A stretch of 64,000 nt of DNA from Sulfitobacter sp. DFL-14. GTDB lineage: Bacteria > Pseudomonadota > Alphaproteobacteria > Rhodobacterales > Rhodobacteraceae. Location: the NCBI RefSeq assembly GCF_003335585.1, contig NZ_QBFD01000022.1:255081-319080 (forward strand), in the 5' to 3' direction. This document shows, piece by piece, positions 42,162-49,878 of this stretch; position 1 is the first letter of the stretch; every line of letters starts with the position of its first letter. The translations under genes and the position numbers were made by a program. The notes below the pieces were generated by a model that did no database searches, had not been told where the DNA came from, and worked only from the letters and a program-made list of their open reading frames with translations.

Positions 42162-42266
42162 TTGCCCTGTCCTCACTATGGTGTTGGCACGAAAGGAAAG
42201 GCACGGGATCGGGCGCCAGCGGCACCGGAACACGCGCCCCGGCCCTCCGCCGCGGTCGTCATCTAT

Positions 42267-42431
42267 GGTGCTCCGGCAGGTCTCCTGACTCGCAGCTCGG
42301 GTGTCGCGGCCCCCTTCCCGGTGCGGCATGCACCAGTGGTAACGGGACGTGACTCGCTGCTTACAGTTGCGGGGGCAGTGCCGGATTTTCACCAGCTTCC
42401 CTTTTCACCGGCGAGACGAGTCGCCGGCACC
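42267..42431 (-). promoter_or_regulatory. Cobalamin riboswitch controlling nrdHIEF
   Basis: Read leftward, the RNA has the hallmarks of the AdoCbl aptamer: GGTGAAAAGGGAAGC, then CTGCCCCCGCAACTGTAA, a CCACTG block, and the B12 box GTCAGGAGACCTGCC. P1 can form from GGTGCCGG (5') and CCGGAGCACC (3'). A minus-strand TTGACA lies at 42472-42467 just upstream, with a weak -10. B12 binding should switch off class Ib reductase. This implies a B12-dependent class II reductase elsewhere in the genome (inference). Confidence 0.93.
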
Positions 42432-42593
42432 AAAGCAACTGCATATTGGGTGAACTTGAGGCAAACTGTCAATATATAGATGTTGGCCTTTTTGCGTTCA
42501 CCTTCCGGGAAAATGCGTTGCTGTCTTTTCCAAGAGTGTTTTGGTCGCAAATAAATCTTCATAAAACACGCGTCCGGCCTATCATCACGGGAC

Positions 42594-42760
42594 AAGGTGC
42601 GGGCTTCGGTCCGAGAATTGGGAAGCCGGCGAAAATCCGGCACTGCCCCCGCAACGGTAAGATCGTAATGCGGCGCATCAACAGCCACTGGGCAGGAGGA
42701 GCCCGGGAAGGCGTTGCGCCTCGGGCCCTCACGGGCTGCGATCAAGTCCGGAAACCAGCC
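42594..42760 (+). promoter_or_regulatory. Cobalamin riboswitch controlling gbcAB
   Basis: Contains AATTGGGAAGCCGGCGAAAA, CTGCCCCCGCAACGGTAA, GCCACTGGGC and a variant B12 box AAGTCCGGAAACCAGCC. It lies about 140 nt before gbcA and back-to-back with the nrdH riboswitch. The B12 box differs from the other three copies in the window, suggesting separate origin. Confidence 0.88.
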
Positions 42761-42767
42761 TTGGTGA

Positions 42768-44126
<1,359 letters not shown>

Positions 44127-45204: not shown

Positions 45205-45238
45205 TTGTATTCACCAAACCGAGAGGTTAACCAGTTTC

Positions 45239-45409
45239 TGTCGGTTTCCGAAAGGAATCAAAAGGGAATCCGCCACCGCGCAAGCGGTGAAACGGAACTG
45301 CCCCCGCAACTGTAGACGGCGAGTGCCAAGCCATAAAAGCCACTGTGGTCCAAGTGCCATGGGAAGGCAGCCAAGCACAGCGACCCGTCAGTCAGGAGAC
45401 CTGCCGACA
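45239..45409 (+). promoter_or_regulatory. Cobalamin riboswitch, unit 1 of the duplicated B12-uptake module
   Basis: P1 pairs TGTCGG (45239-45244) with CCGACA (45404-45409). Inside are GGAATCAAAAGGGAATCCGC, GAACTGCCCCCGCAACTGTAG, GCCACTGTGG, CATGGGAAGGC and the B12 box GTCAGGAGACCTGCC. Just downstream, CCCGG in GTCCCGGCGGGG can pair with CCGGG in TCCGGGGAGG, which is the ribosome site of the leader ORF at 45455, so that ORF appears to be the direct target of control. Confidence 0.95.
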
Positions 45410-45454
45410 TGCAACAGCAACGCGGTCCCGGCGGGGTGTCCGGGGAGGTGCCAT

Positions 45455-45613
45455 ATGACGTTTTCCTCAACGGGGCCTATCGGGGTTTCCTGTGACTGCA
45501 ACAATGCACCGGCCCTCACGGCCGGCGCTGTGTTGCTTTCCGAGGTCGGCAATCCCTTCCTGTCTCCGGTCGCTTCATCAACCGGAGATCACATATGTCC
45601 CTCAAATCACTGA
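45455..45613 (+). CDS. Leader ORF 1 (52 aa) between riboswitch and binding-protein gene
   Basis: Small ORF of unknown function with a very strong ribosome site, GGGGAGGTG, 5-7 nt before ATG 45455. The peptide begins MTFSSTGPIGVSCDCNN and ends SPVASSTGDHICPSNH. It runs through the hairpin that covers the next gene's ribosome site and stops 19 nt inside that gene. A second ORF of identical length, ribosome site and 19-nt overlap lies in the paralogous unit at 46927-47085; shared C-terminal residues are P34, L36, S37, P38, A40, S41, G44, D45, C48 and H52. Probably a coupling leader; a functional peptide is not excluded. Confidence 0.65.
   Translation: MTFSSTGPIGVSCDCNNAPALTAGAVLLSEVGNPFLSPVASSTGDHICPSNH
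45563..45588 (+). promoter_or_regulatory. Hairpin masking the ribosome site of binding protein 1
   Basis: TCTCCGGT at 45563-45570 and ACCGGAGA at 45581-45588 form a perfect 8-bp stem with a 10-nt loop. GGAGA in the right arm is the ribosome site for ATG 45595. A ribosome translating the leader ORF would open it. Confidence 0.65.
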
Positions 45614-46602
45614 CCGGCGCCGCCATGACGGCAATGGCGCTGGCGCTGCCGGCATTGGCCGAAACCGACTACCCCCTGACGATCGAGAATTGCGGCGTCG
45701 AACTGGTGTTCCCGAAGGCGCCCGAGACTGTGGTTTCGCTTGGCCAGCGGGGCACCGAGATCCTGTATCAGCTGGGGCTGGCCGACCGGGTCAGGGCGAC
45801 CTCGGTCTGGCGCAGTCCGGTGCTGCCGCAGTTCGCGCAAGTGGATGCCGGGATCGAAAGACTGGACAACAACAACCCCTCCTTCGAGGCGGTGATCGAA
45901 CGCCGCCCCGATCTGGTGACAACGGACCTGCAATATTACATCGGGATCAAGGGGTCCGTCGGCACGCGCCAGCAGTTCGCGGACCTCGGCATTCCGGCCT
46001 ACAACCTGCCCTCGGATTGCGCTGACCGGCCGCAGATGGAAACCTCGGACGGCCCGCGCCCGGTGCCCTTCGAGATGGGCCTCGTTTATCGTGACATTGC
46101 CGAGCTGGCCGAGATCTTTGACGTTCAGAACCGGGGCGCGGCGCTGATCGCGGATCTGCGCAAGCGTGAAGCAGCGGCAAAGGCAAAGGTCGGCGCGGTC
46201 TCCGGTAACGTCAGCGTCGTCTTCTGGTTCTCGTCGGCAACCACGGACGCCGACCCCTATGTCGCCGGTCAGAACGGCGCACCGGGCTACATGGCCCGGC
46301 AACTCGGGATGACCAACATCATCGACAGTTTCGAGGACTGGCCGACCGTGAGCTGGGAGACCATCACCCGGAAGAACCCCACGATCATCGCCATCGCCGA
46401 CATGAGCCGCCGCCGCTATCCGATGGATTCGACCGAGGCCAAGATGGCGTTCCTGACCGGCGATCCGGTGGCCAGCCTGATGGAGGCGGTCAGGGAGGGC
46501 CGGGTGGTGCCGATGGACGCGATGACGCTGAACCCTTCGACCCGGATCATCGACGGGCTTGAGGCACTGGCCGAAGCGATCGAGGTCCAGGGTCTGAAAT
46601 GA
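45595..46602 (+). CDS. Probable corrinoid ABC transporter substrate-binding protein 1
   Basis: 335 aa, Sec signal peptide MSLKSLTGAAMTAMALALPA ending at ALA/ET, then a type III (BtuF/FepB-like) fold starting YPLTIENCGVELVFPKAPET. It has a paralogue encoded at 47067, with shared YPLTIENCGV, VFWFSSA and DPYVAG segments. Cys in IENCGV and LPSDC are conserved in both and may form a disulfide. The cobalamin riboswitch argues for B12, cobinamide or another corrinoid as ligand; a siderophore-type ligand cannot be excluded from sequence alone. Confidence 0.85.
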   Translation: MSLKSLTGAAMTAMALALPALAETDYPLTIENCGVELVFPKAPETVVSLGQRGTEILYQLGLADRVRATSVWRSPVLPQFAQVDAGIERLDNNNPSFEAVIERRPDLVTTDLQYYIGIKGSVGTRQQFADLGIPAYNLPSDCADRPQMETSDGPRPVPFEMGLVYRDIAELAEIFDVQNRGAALIADLRKREAAAKAKVGAVSGNVSVVFWFSSATTDADPYVAGQNGAPGYMARQLGMTNIIDSFEDWPTVSWETITRKNPTIIAIADMSRRRYPMDSTEAKMAFLTGDPVASLMEAVREGRVVPMDAMTLNPSTRIIDGLEALAEAIEVQGLK

Positions 46603-46713
46603 CCGGTGCCGCCGCCCCTGCCGCGCACCTGCGACCCGTCGCGCTCCGGGCTGTGGTTGAGCGGTCCGAGATCGGCGATTGCGGCTGCGGAAATTGCTGG
46701 CTAGAACAACGCC

Positions 46714-46882
46714 TGTCGGTTTCCGCAAGGAATCAAAAGGGAATTCGCCACCGGCCTGCCGGTGAACCGAAACTGCCCCCGCAACTGTAGGCGATGAGCG
46801 TGCAGCGATCATGCCACTGTGGTCACCGTACCATGGGAAGGCCGCTGCCGTGACGACCCGCCAGTCAGGAGACCTGCCGACA
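46714..46882 (+). promoter_or_regulatory. Cobalamin riboswitch, unit 2 of the duplicated B12-uptake module
   Basis: Same architecture as unit 1: TGTCGG (46714-46719) pairs with CCGACA (46877-46882), GGAATCAAAAGGGAATTCGC, AAACTGCCCCCGCAACTGTAG, GCCACTGTGG and GTCAGGAGACCTGCC. Downstream, CCCGG in CGGCCCGGGCGGGG can pair with the CCGGG that overlaps the leader ORF 2 ribosome site. It gives the second half of the operon independent B12 control. Confidence 0.95.
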
Positions 46883-46926
46883 GCAAACGTAACGCGGCCC
46901 GGGCGGGGAGTCCGGGGAGGTGTCGA

Positions 46927-47085
46927 ATGAACTTTGTCCAGCGGTGCTCCCATGCACCCTCCATTGCCAACCTGCAGATGTCAGCCGCCCCGGTTGCCGT
47001 GCAGTCCAGCCATGGGTTCGCCATTCCCTCTTTGTCCCCGGGCGCATCACACTCCGGAGACATACGATGTACGACAAGACACTAA
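46927..47085 (+). CDS. Leader ORF 2 (52 aa) between riboswitch and binding-protein gene
   Basis: Counterpart of the ORF at 45455-45613: 159 nt including stop, ribosome site GGGGAGGTG before ATG 46927, and a 19-nt overlap with the binding-protein gene. The peptide begins MNFVQRCSHAPSIANLQ and ends SPGASHSGDIRCTTRH. The N-terminal two-thirds is diverged from ORF 1, the last 20 residues are partly conserved. Four matching residues (L36, S37, A40, D45) use different codons, a mild hint of selection on the peptide. Function unknown. Confidence 0.62.
   Translation: MNFVQRCSHAPSIANLQMSAAPVAVQSSHGFAIPSLSPGASHSGDIRCTTRH
47034..47061 (+). promoter_or_regulatory. Hairpin masking the ribosome site of binding protein 2
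   Basis: GTCCCCGG (47034-47041) can pair with CCGGAGAC (47054-47061) with 7 of 8 pairs; the right arm holds the GGAGA ribosome site of ATG 47067. It is the equivalent of the perfect stem in unit 1. Confidence 0.55.
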
Positions 47086-48077
47086 GGGCGGCCCTGCTGG
47101 GCGCGGTCTGCTGCGCGCCGATGGCGCAGGCCCAGACGACCTATCCCCTGACGATCGAGAATTGCGGCGTCAACGTCACCTTTGACGCGGCCCCCAATAC
47201 GGCGGTGACCGTCGGTCAGGCCGGAACCGAGCTGATGTATATGCTGGGACTTGGCAACAAGGTTGCCGGAACCTCGGTCTGGTTTACCAAAGTGCTGCCC
47301 GAGTTCACCGAATTGAACGCAGGCATCGAACGTCTGGCCGACAATGACCCCAGCTTTGAATCCGTGGTCGAGAAGCGCCCCGATGTGGTCGTCGTGCAAT
47401 ATGAATGGCACATCGGCCCGCAGGGCATCGTCGCCACCCGCGATCAGTTTGCCGATCTTGGCATCCCCACCTTCGTGCTGCCCGCCGATTGCTGGGCCAA
47501 GGACAACAGCACCGGATCGGATGGCACCCGTCTGGCCATGTTCGAAATGGACAGCATCTATGCCGGCGTTACCCAGCTTGCACAGATCTTTGACGTGTCC
47601 GAGAAAGGCGCGACCCTGGTCGCGGATCTGAAAGCGCGCGAAGCGGCGGCCATCGAAAAGGCGGCGGCGCTGGATCTTGACGATGCCTCGGCCGTGTTCT
47701 GGTTCTCCTCCGCCGAGATGGACATCGACCCCTATGTCGCGGGCCGCAAGGGACCTCCGGGTTACATGATGGAGAAGCTCGGCCTGCGCAATGTCGTGGA
47801 AAGCGACGAGGAATGGCCGGTTGTCAGCTGGGAAAGCATCGCCCGCGCCAATCCTTCGGTCATCGTCGTCGCCGAAATGGACCGGCGCCGTTTCGAGGCG
47901 GATGATGTGGAGAAGAAGCTGGAATTCCTGCGCAGCGATCCCGTCACCAGCCAGATGGACGCGGTCAAGAACAATCGCATCGTGATCCTGAACGCCCATT
48001 CGATGGACCCGTCGATCCGCAATGTCACAGCGCTTGAAACATTGGCCGAGGCCCTGCCGAAGTTCGATCTGCAATGA
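47067..48077 (+). CDS. Probable corrinoid ABC transporter substrate-binding protein 2
   Basis: 336 aa paralogue of the protein encoded at 45595. Signal peptide MYDKTLRAALLGAVCCAPMA ends near AQA/QT, then YPLTIENCGVNVTFDAAPNT. ATGA overlap with the permease gene. Two diverged binding proteins, each with its own riboswitch, share one permease and ATPase, which suggests different corrinoids or affinities (inference). Ligand not provable from sequence. Confidence 0.85.
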   Translation: MYDKTLRAALLGAVCCAPMAQAQTTYPLTIENCGVNVTFDAAPNTAVTVGQAGTELMYMLGLGNKVAGTSVWFTKVLPEFTELNAGIERLADNDPSFESVVEKRPDVVVVQYEWHIGPQGIVATRDQFADLGIPTFVLPADCWAKDNSTGSDGTRLAMFEMDSIYAGVTQLAQIFDVSEKGATLVADLKAREAAAIEKAAALDLDDASAVFWFSSAEMDIDPYVAGRKGPPGYMMEKLGLRNVVESDEEWPVVSWESIARANPSVIVVAEMDRRRFEADDVEKKLEFLRSDPVTSQMDAVKNNRIVILNAHSMDPSIRNVTALETLAEALPKFDLQ

Positions 48078-49114
48078 GTGATCTGGCTGTCCCCCGCGTC
48101 TTGCGGCGCACGCACGGGCTGTGGATCGCGCAGGGGGCGGCCATATTGCTGTTGGCGGTTCTGGCCGGAGTCGTCATTGGCGAAACGCCGCTGCCGCTTT
48201 CCACGGTGGCGGCGGTCTTTGCCAACCGCGTCTGGGATGCGGGGCTGATCGTTGACCCCATCGACGTCGGCATCATCTGGAGCTATCGGCTGCCGCGCAC
48301 CCTGCTGGCCGCTGCCTGTGGCGCGGGGCTTGCGCTGTCGGGCGTCGTTCTACAGGCTTTGGTGCGCAATGCCCTGGCCGATCCCTATCTGCTGGGGGTT
48401 TCCGCAGGGGCGGGCGCGGGTGCGGTTGCGGTCACCATTCTGGGGGTTGGCGGCGGTCTGCTGGGGATCTCGGGCGGGGCCTTTGTCGGGGCGACCCTGG
48501 CCTTTGGCGTGGTCGCGGCGCTGGCGCGCGCGGCGGGTGGCGGCTCGGCGCAGCTTGTGCTTGCGGGCATCGCCGGTTCGCAGCTTTTCAACGCGCTCAC
48601 ATCCTTTCTGATCGCCAAATCGGCAAATGCGGAACAGGCGCGCGGCATCATGTTCTGGTTGCTGGGCAACCTGTCGGGCGTGCGCTGGCCCGATGTGGTG
48701 CTGGCGGCCCCCGTCACGCCGGTCGGTTTTCTGATCTGCCTGTGGTTCGCCCGCGCGATGGATGCGTTTTCCTTCGGGGTCTCCTCGGCGGCTTCGCTTG
48801 GCATCGCGGTGCGCCGGGTTCAGATCATGCTGATCGGTGCCGTGACCCTGATGACCGCCACCATGGTCAGTCTGGTCGGCTCCATCGGTTTCGTGGGCCT
48901 TGTGATCCCCCATGCCATGCGCTTTGTGGTTGGCCCACGACATGCGCGGCTTGTGCCTGCTTCGGCCCTGGCGGGGGCTGTCTTTCTGATCGTGGCGGAT
49001 ATCGCCTCGCGCATGCTGATCCCCGGTCAGGTCGTTCCGATTGGTGTGGTCACGGCGCTGGTCGGCGCGCCGGGCTTTGCGCTGATCCTTGTGCGCAACC
49101 GGAGGCGGCCATGA
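48074..49114 (+). CDS. BtuC/FecCD-type ABC permease
   Basis: 346 aa, about ten helices. FecCD motifs: LVRNALADPYLLGVSAGAGA, SLVGSIGFVGLVIPHAMRFV and the C-terminal GVVTALVGAPGFALILVRNR. Being the only permease in the B12-riboswitch operon, it probably serves both binding proteins as a homodimer. Confidence 0.92.
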   Translation: MSDLAVPRVLRRTHGLWIAQGAAILLLAVLAGVVIGETPLPLSTVAAVFANRVWDAGLIVDPIDVGIIWSYRLPRTLLAAACGAGLALSGVVLQALVRNALADPYLLGVSAGAGAGAVAVTILGVGGGLLGISGGAFVGATLAFGVVAALARAAGGGSAQLVLAGIAGSQLFNALTSFLIAKSANAEQARGIMFWLLGNLSGVRWPDVVLAAPVTPVGFLICLWFARAMDAFSFGVSSAASLGIAVRRVQIMLIGAVTLMTATMVSLVGSIGFVGLVIPHAMRFVVGPRHARLVPASALAGAVFLIVADIASRMLIPGQVVPIGVVTALVGAPGFALILVRNRRRP

Positions 49115-49878
49115 GGCTTGAGGCAAAATCCCTTGGCTGGGCGGCAGGGTCGCGGCGCATCGTCGAGGACGTCTCGCTTGAGGTTGCGCCGGGTGAGACG
49201 CTTGGCCTGATCGGCCCGAACGGCTCCGGCAAATCCACGCTGCTGCGCCTTTTGGCGGGGCTGCTGACGCGCCGCACTGGCACCGTGCTGCTGGAGGGCG
49301 CGCCCCTGACCACGCTCAGCAGGCGCGACATCGCCCAAAAGATTGCGGTTGTGGAACAGATCGCCGAAACCTCCGAGGCGCTTTTGGTGCGCGATGTGGT
49401 CGAACTGGGGCGCACGCCCTGGCTGTCGGCGCTGGCCCCTTTCGGTGCGCAGGACCGGGCCATCGTTGCGCAGGCGCTGGAGGCGGTGGGCATGGCCCAG
49501 ATGGCAGGGCACAGCTGGGCCACGCTGTCGGGCGGTGAACGCCAGCGGGTGCAGATCGCGCGGGCATTGGCCCAGCGTCCGCGCATCCTGATCCTGGATG
49601 AGCCGACCAACCATCTGGATATCCACCACCAGCTGTCGCTGCTGCGGCTGGTGGCCAATCTGCCGGTAACGGTGGTCATGGCGCTGCATGATCTCAATCA
49701 GGCGATGGGTTGCGACCGCCTTGCGGTGATGGACGGCGGGCGGATGGTCGCCTGCGGGCCGCCCGATGAGGTGCTGAGCACCGCGCGGCTGGCCTCGATC
49801 TTTCGCGTTCAGGCCACCCGGCTGCGCGACCCTGCCGACAATGCAACCGTCTTTCGCTTTCTATGTCACGAGGTGTGA
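49111..49878 (+). CDS. BtuD/FecE-type ABC ATPase
   Basis: 255 aa: Walker A GPNGSGKSTLLRLLAG, signature TLSGGERQRVQIARAL, Walker B LILDEPTNHLDI, H-loop MALHDLNQAM. ATG 49111 overlaps the permease stop as ATGA. Motor of the corrinoid importer. Confidence 0.93.
   Translation: MRLEAKSLGWAAGSRRIVEDVSLEVAPGETLGLIGPNGSGKSTLLRLLAGLLTRRTGTVLLEGAPLTTLSRRDIAQKIAVVEQIAETSEALLVRDVVELGRTPWLSALAPFGAQDRAIVAQALEAVGMAQMAGHSWATLSGGERQRVQIARALAQRPRILILDEPTNHLDIHHQLSLLRLVANLPVTVVMALHDLNQAMGCDRLAVMDGGRMVACGPPDEVLSTARLASIFRVQATRLRDPADNATVFRFLCHEV

Follow-up and report, generated by a model that had tools for sequence, protein, structure and literature searches.

The window analysed here, 64,000 nucleotides (nt) of contig NZ_QBFD01000022.1 of Sulfitobacter sp. 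DFL-14 (assembly GCF_003335585.1), carries two consecutive units in which a cobalamin (B12) riboswitch precedes a short leader open reading frame (ORF) and the gene of a transporter binding protein (Table 1). Their anatomy suggests that the riboswitch controls the transporter gene through the ORF. Both aptamers were recovered by cmscan far above the gathering score of RF00174 (102.8 and 104.4 bits vs 31.5), and the binding proteins are 51% identical in an alignment, in agreement with the initial annotation of two paralogous units. In each unit a P13-type hairpin with CCCGG and CCGGG arms adjoins GGGGAGGTG, and its 3' arm merges into the ORF ribosome site GGGGAGG. A pairing able to cover this site, as predicted earlier, is indeed present. 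The hairpin loop contains GCGGGG, complementary to the L5 sequence CCCCCGC of its own aptamer (CCCCGC/GCGGGG), as expected of an L5-L13 kissing loop. The site covered by P13 belongs to the ORF of 52 codons and not to the regulated gene, and the units do not represent the direct platform.

Both leader ORFs are 159 nt long and stop 19 nt inside the gene, as first described, and the gene start lies 140 nt after the ORF start. The gene carries its own Shine-Dalgarno sequence (SD), GGAGA, 6 nt before the ATG in both units. The reported divergence of the ORF N-termini was confirmed: BLASTP matched the two peptides over the last 19 residues only (10 of 19 identical), the stretch which holds the ribosome site of the gene. 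Neither ORF matched a family in Pfam or NCBIfam. A hairpin over the gene's ribosome site is found at the same position in both units; that of unit 1 is strong (-13.4 kcal/mol, z -3.1, equalled by 0 of 200 shuffles). Between 45000 and 47300 a search of both strands gave three terminator-like matches vs 1.3 expected; the scan for intrinsic terminators on the plus strand gave one weak match, in unit 1 at 45517-45532, and none in unit 2. In unit 2 a GTG adjoins the SD and opens a 385-codon frame in phase with binding protein 2 (46920-48077), via which a gene caller could stretch this protein over the leader. The ORF start in this unit and in its relatives L060, L120 and L121 was set to the ATG 7 nt after the GTG.

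Table 1. Features of the two riboswitch units and of the transporter operon, numbered by position in the window.
Feature	Position	Strand	Evidence and remarks
Unit 1 cobalamin riboswitch aptamer (RF00174)	45225..45423	+	cmscan; L5 CCCCC at 45301-45305
Unit 1 P13-like hairpin CCCGG-[CGGGGTGT]-CCGGG	45427..45444	+	sequence, hairpin scan; GCGGGG can pair with L5
Unit 1 leader-ORF ribosome site GGGGAGG	45442..45448	+	sequence; overlaps 3' arm of P13
Unit 1 leader ORF, 52 codons, stop 19 nt into gene	45455..45613	+	translation, homologues
Unit 1 gene hairpin GTCTCCGGT/ACCGGAGAT over gene ribosome site GGAGA (45584-45588)	45562..45589	+	fold, pair counts
Binding protein 1 (Peripla_BP_2)	45595..46602	+	Pfam PF01497, 6.2e-33
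Unit 2 cobalamin riboswitch aptamer (RF00174)	46700..46895	+	cmscan; L5 CCCCC at 46776-46780
Unit 2 P13-like hairpin CCCGG-[GCGGGGAGT]-CCGGG	46898..46916	+	sequence, hairpin scan
Unit 2 leader-ORF ribosome site GGGGAGG	46914..46920	+	sequence
Unit 2 leader ORF, 52 codons, stop 19 nt into gene	46927..47085	+	translation
Unit 2 gene hairpin, weak, with a C.A mismatch, over ribosome site GGAGA (47056-47060)	47033..47062	+	fold
Binding protein 2 (Peripla_BP_2)	47067..48077	+	Pfam PF01497, 1e-35; alignment to binding protein 1
FecCD-type permease, same transporter operon	48074..49114	+	Pfam PF01032, 6.5e-83
ABC ATPase, same transporter operon	49111..49878	+	Pfam PF00005, 1.7e-36

Homologous loci of the binding protein were collected from a database search (the best 80 of 557 confirmed loci), from genomes of the family (13 of 198 matched at E≤1e-60 and 25 of 394 at 1e-90) and from plasmid records (608 of 72,556 at E≤1e-60, of which 12 were examined singly). 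No gene is listed at the leader ORF in these 12 records, but the gene table describes itself as incomplete. A script placed gene starts at in-frame ATG codons with an SD. A set of 33 Rhodobacterales-type loci was chosen by hand. It excludes L090 and L091, which lack an ATG behind the SD; L096, L113 and L114, in which no distinct ORF was seen; L106 and L107, whose leaders are identical; and L119, which shares its species and leader layout with L040. Since close relatives occur within this set, thinned sets are reported beside the full ones. All remaining loci with a B12 box among the best 80 of 557 form a second set of 65, which by record title are mainly Rhizobiales, with Thalassospira, Geminicoccus and two metagenome-assembled genomes (MAGs) labelled otherwise. 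L028, a MAG labelled Arenimonas, and L070, a MAG labelled Acidobacteria, have Rhizobiales-type leaders, near L067 and L068, respectively, and their contigs are possibly misbinned.

The layout of the window units recurs widely. A B12 box begins 174-404 nt before the match in 78 of the best 80 of 557 database loci. Fifteen loci had no box, among them the uninformative L094, whose contig starts 87 nt before the match. In the 104 distinct boxed loci, P13 was detected by exact pairing in 99, the motif [GA]CGGGG in the L13 zone in 103 and CCCCCGCAAC upstream likewise in 103. An ATG at ribosome-site distance behind P13 is present in 96 of the 104; as a control, 49 of 308 equal windows placed further along these leaders held any ATG. 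Two of the 96 loci, L113 and L114, have P13 directly on the start of the binding protein gene, a direct form within the same transporter family, and in L096 no separate ORF was seen. The leaders of L129 (Sagittula) and L091 are shortened, with an ORF or a remnant only ~70 nt before the gene, and are possible intermediates between the direct and the relayed forms.

A unit of riboswitch and leader ORF is also present on plasmid pRCB133 of Rhodobacter capsulatus SB1003 (L119). The plasmid carries two such ABC transporter operons side by side. For the first binding protein (1695) no B12 box was detected within 600 nt. The second (6001) has the riboswitch and the leader ORF, and its annotated start lies 60 nt further downstream than the ATG chosen here. 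Palindromes which we take to resemble Zur boxes precede the transporter gene in L073 (Thalassospira), where they are part of the riboswitch leader, and in L092 and L109, where no B12 box accompanies them.

The leader ORF itself is retained with a variable end. In the Rhodobacterales-type set 29 of 33 ORFs, 27-71 codons long, have a stop, located at -19 to +46 nt relative to the gene start in 28 and at +92 in one; the remaining four (L043, L105, L127, L129) run in frame into the gene. Between -20 and +50 ended 28 of 33 ORFs vs 61.8% in shuffled leaders, and none ended before -20 (24.5% in shuffled leaders). The baseline, taken from codons inside the same genes, is a next stop within 46 nt in 26-38%. 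From the ORF start to 20 nt before the gene, stops number 0, 42 and 9 in frames 0, 1 and 2. At the other loci 58 of 65 ORFs have 20-40 codons vs 21% in shuffles, five are shorter and two longer, one of the latter (L056) in frame into the gene. Where the ORF has 20-45 codons (59 of these loci), its end lies between -154 and +1 nt relative to the gene start, with a median of -58. A one-base change of leader length between the Paracoccus yeei loci L122/L130 and L123 turns 44 codons (stop at +4) into 38 (stop at -13), and the stop still adjoins the gene start. The initial annotation had named homologous regions lacking an ORF with a conserved stop position as one possible refutation, and by this test its strict form fails. 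Some relatives share the length of 159 nt and the overlap of 19 nt, and with stops otherwise variable these were dropped as a conserved feature. What is kept at most loci is an ORF that spans the segment opposed to the gene's ribosome site (anti-site).

This segment was characterised by the accessibility of the gene SD at each locus and by duplex tests in which the gene site was paired with its own ORF or with the ORFs of other species. Consensus folding of whole leaders by RNAalifold, which these tests and their sham windows replaced, had been uninformative: the non-Rhodobacterales alignment (A4) gave two pairs only, and the Rhodobacterales alignment (A3), from which the 5' arm of P13 was cut, had the P13 loop and the ORF site paired to the anti-SD region of the gene. 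The mean unpaired probability of the gene SD was 0.106 vs 0.235 with shuffled upstream sequence in the Rhodobacterales-type set (below the shuffle mean at 25 of 33 loci) and 0.169 vs 0.272 at the others (47 of 65). In 22 of the 33 Rhodobacterales-type loci the mean pairing partner of the SD lies 17-22 nt upstream. At 37 of the 65 others it lies 70-101 nt upstream, inside the ORF except in L078 and L082. The duplex tests comprised the 59 other loci with ORFs of 20-45 codons, or the 54 of them in which the ORF also starts less than 190 nt from the gene. The best duplex arm begins at ORF nt 36-50 in 42 of 59 loci vs 35 of 295 sham gene windows.

Gene sites pair better with their own ORF than with foreign ORFs (z -6.07, 0 of 5000 permutations, n = 54 non-Rhodobacterales), also after dereplication (z -4.77, 0 of 5000, n = 34), and five sham gene windows in both sets gave z -1.38 to +2.41. 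Restriction to the anti-site zone gave z -6.1 (dereplicated set), and the local arm of the Rhodobacterales-type loci behaves likewise (z -6.1, n = 33; -5.3 after hand-thinning, n = 26). When whole ORFs were used, 0 of 5000 permutations reached the observed value at the 59 other loci and 36 of 5000 in the 33 Rhodobacterales-type loci. These sequence comparisons bear out the earlier proposals that P13 lies on the ORF's site rather than the gene's and that ORF sequence hides the gene site: both arrangements recur, and anti-site and gene site appear co-adapted.

Taken together, the data suggest a relay of two stages, in which B12 gates the leader ORF and the transit of ribosomes opens the hidden gene site, and we consider this mechanism probable. 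With B12 bound, the L5-L13 kissing loop would, as on the canonical class-I cobalamin platform, keep P13 shut over a ribosome site, here that of the leader ORF, which would stay untranslated. In an ORF without ribosomes the anti-site would then pair with the ribosome site of the transporter gene and shut it. Without B12, P13 would open, ribosomes would enter the ORF and strip the anti-site in transit, and the transporter gene could start; the encoded peptide would be disposable. We infer the B12 response, the translation of the ORF and the opening by transit at these loci from their anatomy, its recurrence and the co-adaptation.

Several observations weigh against this mechanism. The gene hairpin, described as the same in both units, differs in strength: in unit 2 it is weak (-11.0 kcal/mol, z -1.2 vs -3.1 in unit 1, equalled by 22 of 200 shuffles), and the whole unit 2 leader folds no better than shuffles (z -0.19). 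Its C.A mismatch is absent from the near relatives L060, L120 and L121. At 8 of 33 and 18 of 65 loci the gene site is on average at least as well hidden after shuffling, and the Aureimonas-type loci L025, L026, L034, L049 and L050 show little pairing between gene site and ORF. By the strict rule no ATG follows P13 at 8 of 104 loci (L009, L028, L063, L070, L077, L090, L091, L096), of which L028 does have one under the SD-spacing rule and L070 and L077 carry GTG there. In L009, L063, L068, L078 and L082 the ORF has fewer than 20 codons and is too short, or nearly so, to span the usual anti-site. The Rhodobacterales hairpin shows modest covariation (paired cells, 80.5% vs 77.5% after shuffling, reached by 10 of 500 shuffles), partly because the ribosome site hardly varies; slid versions of the hairpin had 33-54% of cells paired. 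Moreover, the permutation tests model phylogeny incompletely, the anti-site arm pairs more strongly with the ORF's own SD than with that of the gene (mean -17.5 vs -14.8 kcal/mol, n = 33), and a peptide that is not conserved would equally be expected of an untranslated stretch. The retention of the start codon and of the ORF length speaks against the latter.

The stronger pairing of the arm with the ORF site would fit a swap that needs no ribosome, in which the ORF ribosome-site segment, freed from P13 without B12, captures the anti-site and so releases the gene site. Such long-range pairs are seen in the RNAalifold consensus of the Rhodobacterales alignment without the 5' arm of P13, and the pe20 Mbox of Mycobacterium tuberculosis has a similar SD1/anti-SD/SD2 scheme (PMC12810186). 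However, the arm is co-adapted with the gene site and not with the ORF's own SD, for which z was +0.5 in the 34 dereplicated non-Rhodobacterales loci and -1.2 in the 26 Rhodobacterales-type loci. The swap would require neither an ATG nor an open frame, yet both are retained at most loci, and we regard it as unlikely.

In a second alternative the C-rich leader, when untranslated, is cut short by Rho, translation of the ORF shields it, and B12 acts on transcription past the leader instead of the gene's ribosome site. The C/G ratio of the leader (1.37-1.38 vs 0.92-0.97 in the gene) is in line with this, and a system of riboswitch and upstream ORF (uORF) with Rho has been reported (PMC12810186). 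A hidden gene site co-adapted with an ORF segment is, however, not predicted by Rho action, which makes this explanation distinctly unlikely, although a Rho effect could be superimposed on the relay.

The same ribosome might also end the ORF and start the gene at an overlapping stop and start, as in the ppe2 type of M. tuberculosis. The 28 of 33 Rhodobacterales-type stops close to the gene start would suit such termination-reinitiation, and it may contribute within this order. In contrast, the ORFs of the 59 other loci end at a median of -58 nt, and 4 of 33 Rhodobacterales-type ORFs have no stop before the gene, which retains a ribosome site of its own. Of these four, L043, L105 and L127 keep a GGAG site ahead of the internal ATG (that of L129 is weaker), as if transit without termination were sufficient. 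Since an ORF may stop far upstream or even continue in frame into the gene, exact stop/start reinitiation is improbable as the common step, and with an SD proper to the gene and a stop that is free to move, transit is the likelier event.

A functional small protein, encoded by the first gene of a B12-repressed operon, would account for the good ribosome site and start codon under the riboswitch. We nevertheless dropped a conserved micro-protein as a candidate, as its length varies, the window ORFs match no family, and the ORFs have a pN/pS (nonsynonymous over synonymous substitution ratio) of 0.75 vs 0.10 for the gene (17 non-overlapping pairs). Substitutions at codon positions 1, 2 and 3 number 63, 71 and 68 in the ORF, with no positional bias, vs 98, 55 and 569 in the gene, the gene comparison omitting four pairs with genes out of register. 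What is kept seems to be the start, the open frame and the RNA pairing rather than the product, and a functional peptide is very improbable. Hardly more credible is an ordinary untranslated leader with incidental ORFs: stops are scarce in frame 2 as well, and shuffled leaders kept frame 0 open in ~24 of 33 (in a run with four starts mis-set), so that openness alone is weak evidence, but the ATG behind P13 and the ORF length of 20-40 codons are retained far beyond their controls.

Translational attenuators of the erm/cat type rely on a ribosome in the leader ORF to expose a masked ribosome site downstream, and they sense the antibiotic through ribosome stalling. The present units share with translational attenuators (for erm-type leader peptides, PMC5118997) the pairing of the gene SD with a segment inside the leader ORF, which is weak in unit 2. 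They differ from the erm/cat type in that entry into the ORF is proposed to be gated by a riboswitch, and no conserved peptide is found as for regulated stalling. The initial annotation had called the arrangement not standard. This has to be qualified by an experimental precedent, the ppe2 operon of M. tuberculosis, in which a B12 riboswitch controls uPPE2, whose translation is needed for the downstream gene and which its authors describe as an 'indispensable relay' between aptamer and operon (Kipkorir et al. 2024, PMC11260477). Here too, the ribosome site that the riboswitch appears to control is that of a uORF ahead of the gene. However, ppe2 has a proposed class IIb variant aptamer, an AUGA overlap and a gene without SD, and works mainly by termination-reinitiation (PMC11260477), whereas our units have a class-I-like aptamer, P13 on the ORF, a gene SD hidden by an anti-SD within the ORF, and an overlap of 19 nt in both window units, with a variable stop in relatives. 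The variant seems to be new and recurrent.

The pe20 Mbox likewise acts on short ORFs (uORF1 and uORF2) via pairing of SD, anti-SD and anti-anti-SD, but it differs in its ligand Mg2+, the involvement of Rho, the conserved peptide of uORF2 and the effect of abolishing the uORF1 start, which raised downstream expression ~1.3-fold (PMC12810186). In the SAM-II riboswitch of Sinorhizobium meliloti metA, also alphaproteobacterial, an SD acts at a distance, and a start codon lying 74 nt further on depends on it. AUG1 and AUG2 share one frame there, an AUG1 mutant is still expressed, and 30S recruitment rather than ORF translation was proposed (PMC9373788). The units also resemble the canonical type of Escherichia coli btuB, in which L5 kisses L13 and P13 controls a ribosome site; in btuB and env8HyCbl the kissing stabilises P13 and promotes closing of the site (PMC10653944). 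There the site is the regulated gene's own, here it is that of a putatively disposable ORF. No description of an alphaproteobacterial relay of B12 riboswitch and leader ORF was found in the literature searched, which mostly excluded subscription journals and, for the broadest queries, comprised the top-ranked matches. The word 'cobalamin' is absent from the main text of a ribosome profiling paper on S. meliloti. On sequence grounds, we regard the units as a recurrent new version of the riboswitch-uORF relay.

A similar layout was found in a second gene family. A search with RF00174 under stricter filters in 41 genomes of the order gave 106 matches, of which 104 were examined (the other two are the binding-protein loci L090 and L091). 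In a BLAST cluster of 33 genes from this census, 12 loci have an ATG-started ORF of 20-51 codons directly after the riboswitch, which ends 8-80 nt inside the gene. At 10 of the 12 loci, L155 and L158 not being among them, the protein matches DUF1636 (PF07845) at E≤1e-25 (6e-31 for L132). In 11 loci, tested without L136, whose positions and protein start are identical to L132, the mean unpaired probability of the SD was 0.086 vs 0.289 after shuffling, and stops by frame were 0/21/6. The other 21 members of the cluster, L169 among them, have no such overlapping ORF. By the same rule the ORF was mostly missing from the other census clusters (TonB-type receptors, NrdI-like, a membrane family starting MHIEPG, CobW-like and Rieske oxygenases; putative names from sequence, the window's Rieske gene alone having been tested). 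In the CbtB cluster the short ORF was taken as cbtB itself, based on Pfam for the copy of the window genome only. Short ORFs are carried by the single loci L135, L143, L169 and L191, that of L169 having 28 codons and stopping 122 nt before the gene.

On balance, we lean towards a general scheme for the Alphaproteobacteria, in which a modular, ribosome-driven relay stands behind class-I B12 riboswitches. A disposable ORF would be inserted, with the anti-SD adjoining the gene (Rhodobacterales) or upstream within the ORF, often 70-100 nt away (Rhizobiales and others), in at least two gene families, the B12-type transporter and DUF1636. Translation would be the signal, and the relay would provide a second switching stage, with transit rather than reinitiation as the active step.

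The genome of Sulfitobacter sp. DFL-14 (5.7 Mb, 47 contigs) has six cobalamin riboswitches, four of which lie within a 4.7-kb part of the window. The two of these four outside the units described above are arranged back to back at 42258-42449 (minus strand) and 42579-42777 (plus strand). One precedes apparent nrdH, nrdI and ribonucleotide reductase large subunit genes (putative, from sequence), the other gbcA/gbcB-like glycine betaine monooxygenase genes; similar Rieske-type genes follow RF00174 at five loci of the census. In the transporter operon, a pseudoazurin gene follows those of the FecCD permease and the ABC ATPase. The nearest named relatives found are Rhodobacterales. In the genome collection the top match of binding protein 1 is a Chachezhania sediminis locus (69% identity), and binding protein 2 is 94% identical to a protein on a Pseudosulfitobacter plasmid. 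The best models for the binding proteins, siderophore (EitA) and F420-0 transporters, are both far under their cut-offs, so that similarity leaves the substrate unsettled. A relative in Pseudosulfitobacter pseudonitzschiae adjoins genes annotated as cobM, cobyrinate a,c-diamide synthase, cobA and precorrin-6A synthase. Together with the riboswitch, these neighbours favour a corrinoid-related substrate.

Annotation usually takes a riboswitch to act on the gene that follows it. If the true target at many loci is a disposable ORF, the assigned B12 regulons, gene starts and reporter designs of aptamer plus next gene would be wrong there, and the ppe2 case of M. tuberculosis would no longer be an oddity but may reflect a common design. 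The comparison of own and foreign ORFs for co-adaptation would provide a means of finding such relays from sequence, and the unit on pRCB133 of R. capsulatus SB1003 would offer a direct test case for a riboswitch that works through ribosome traffic.

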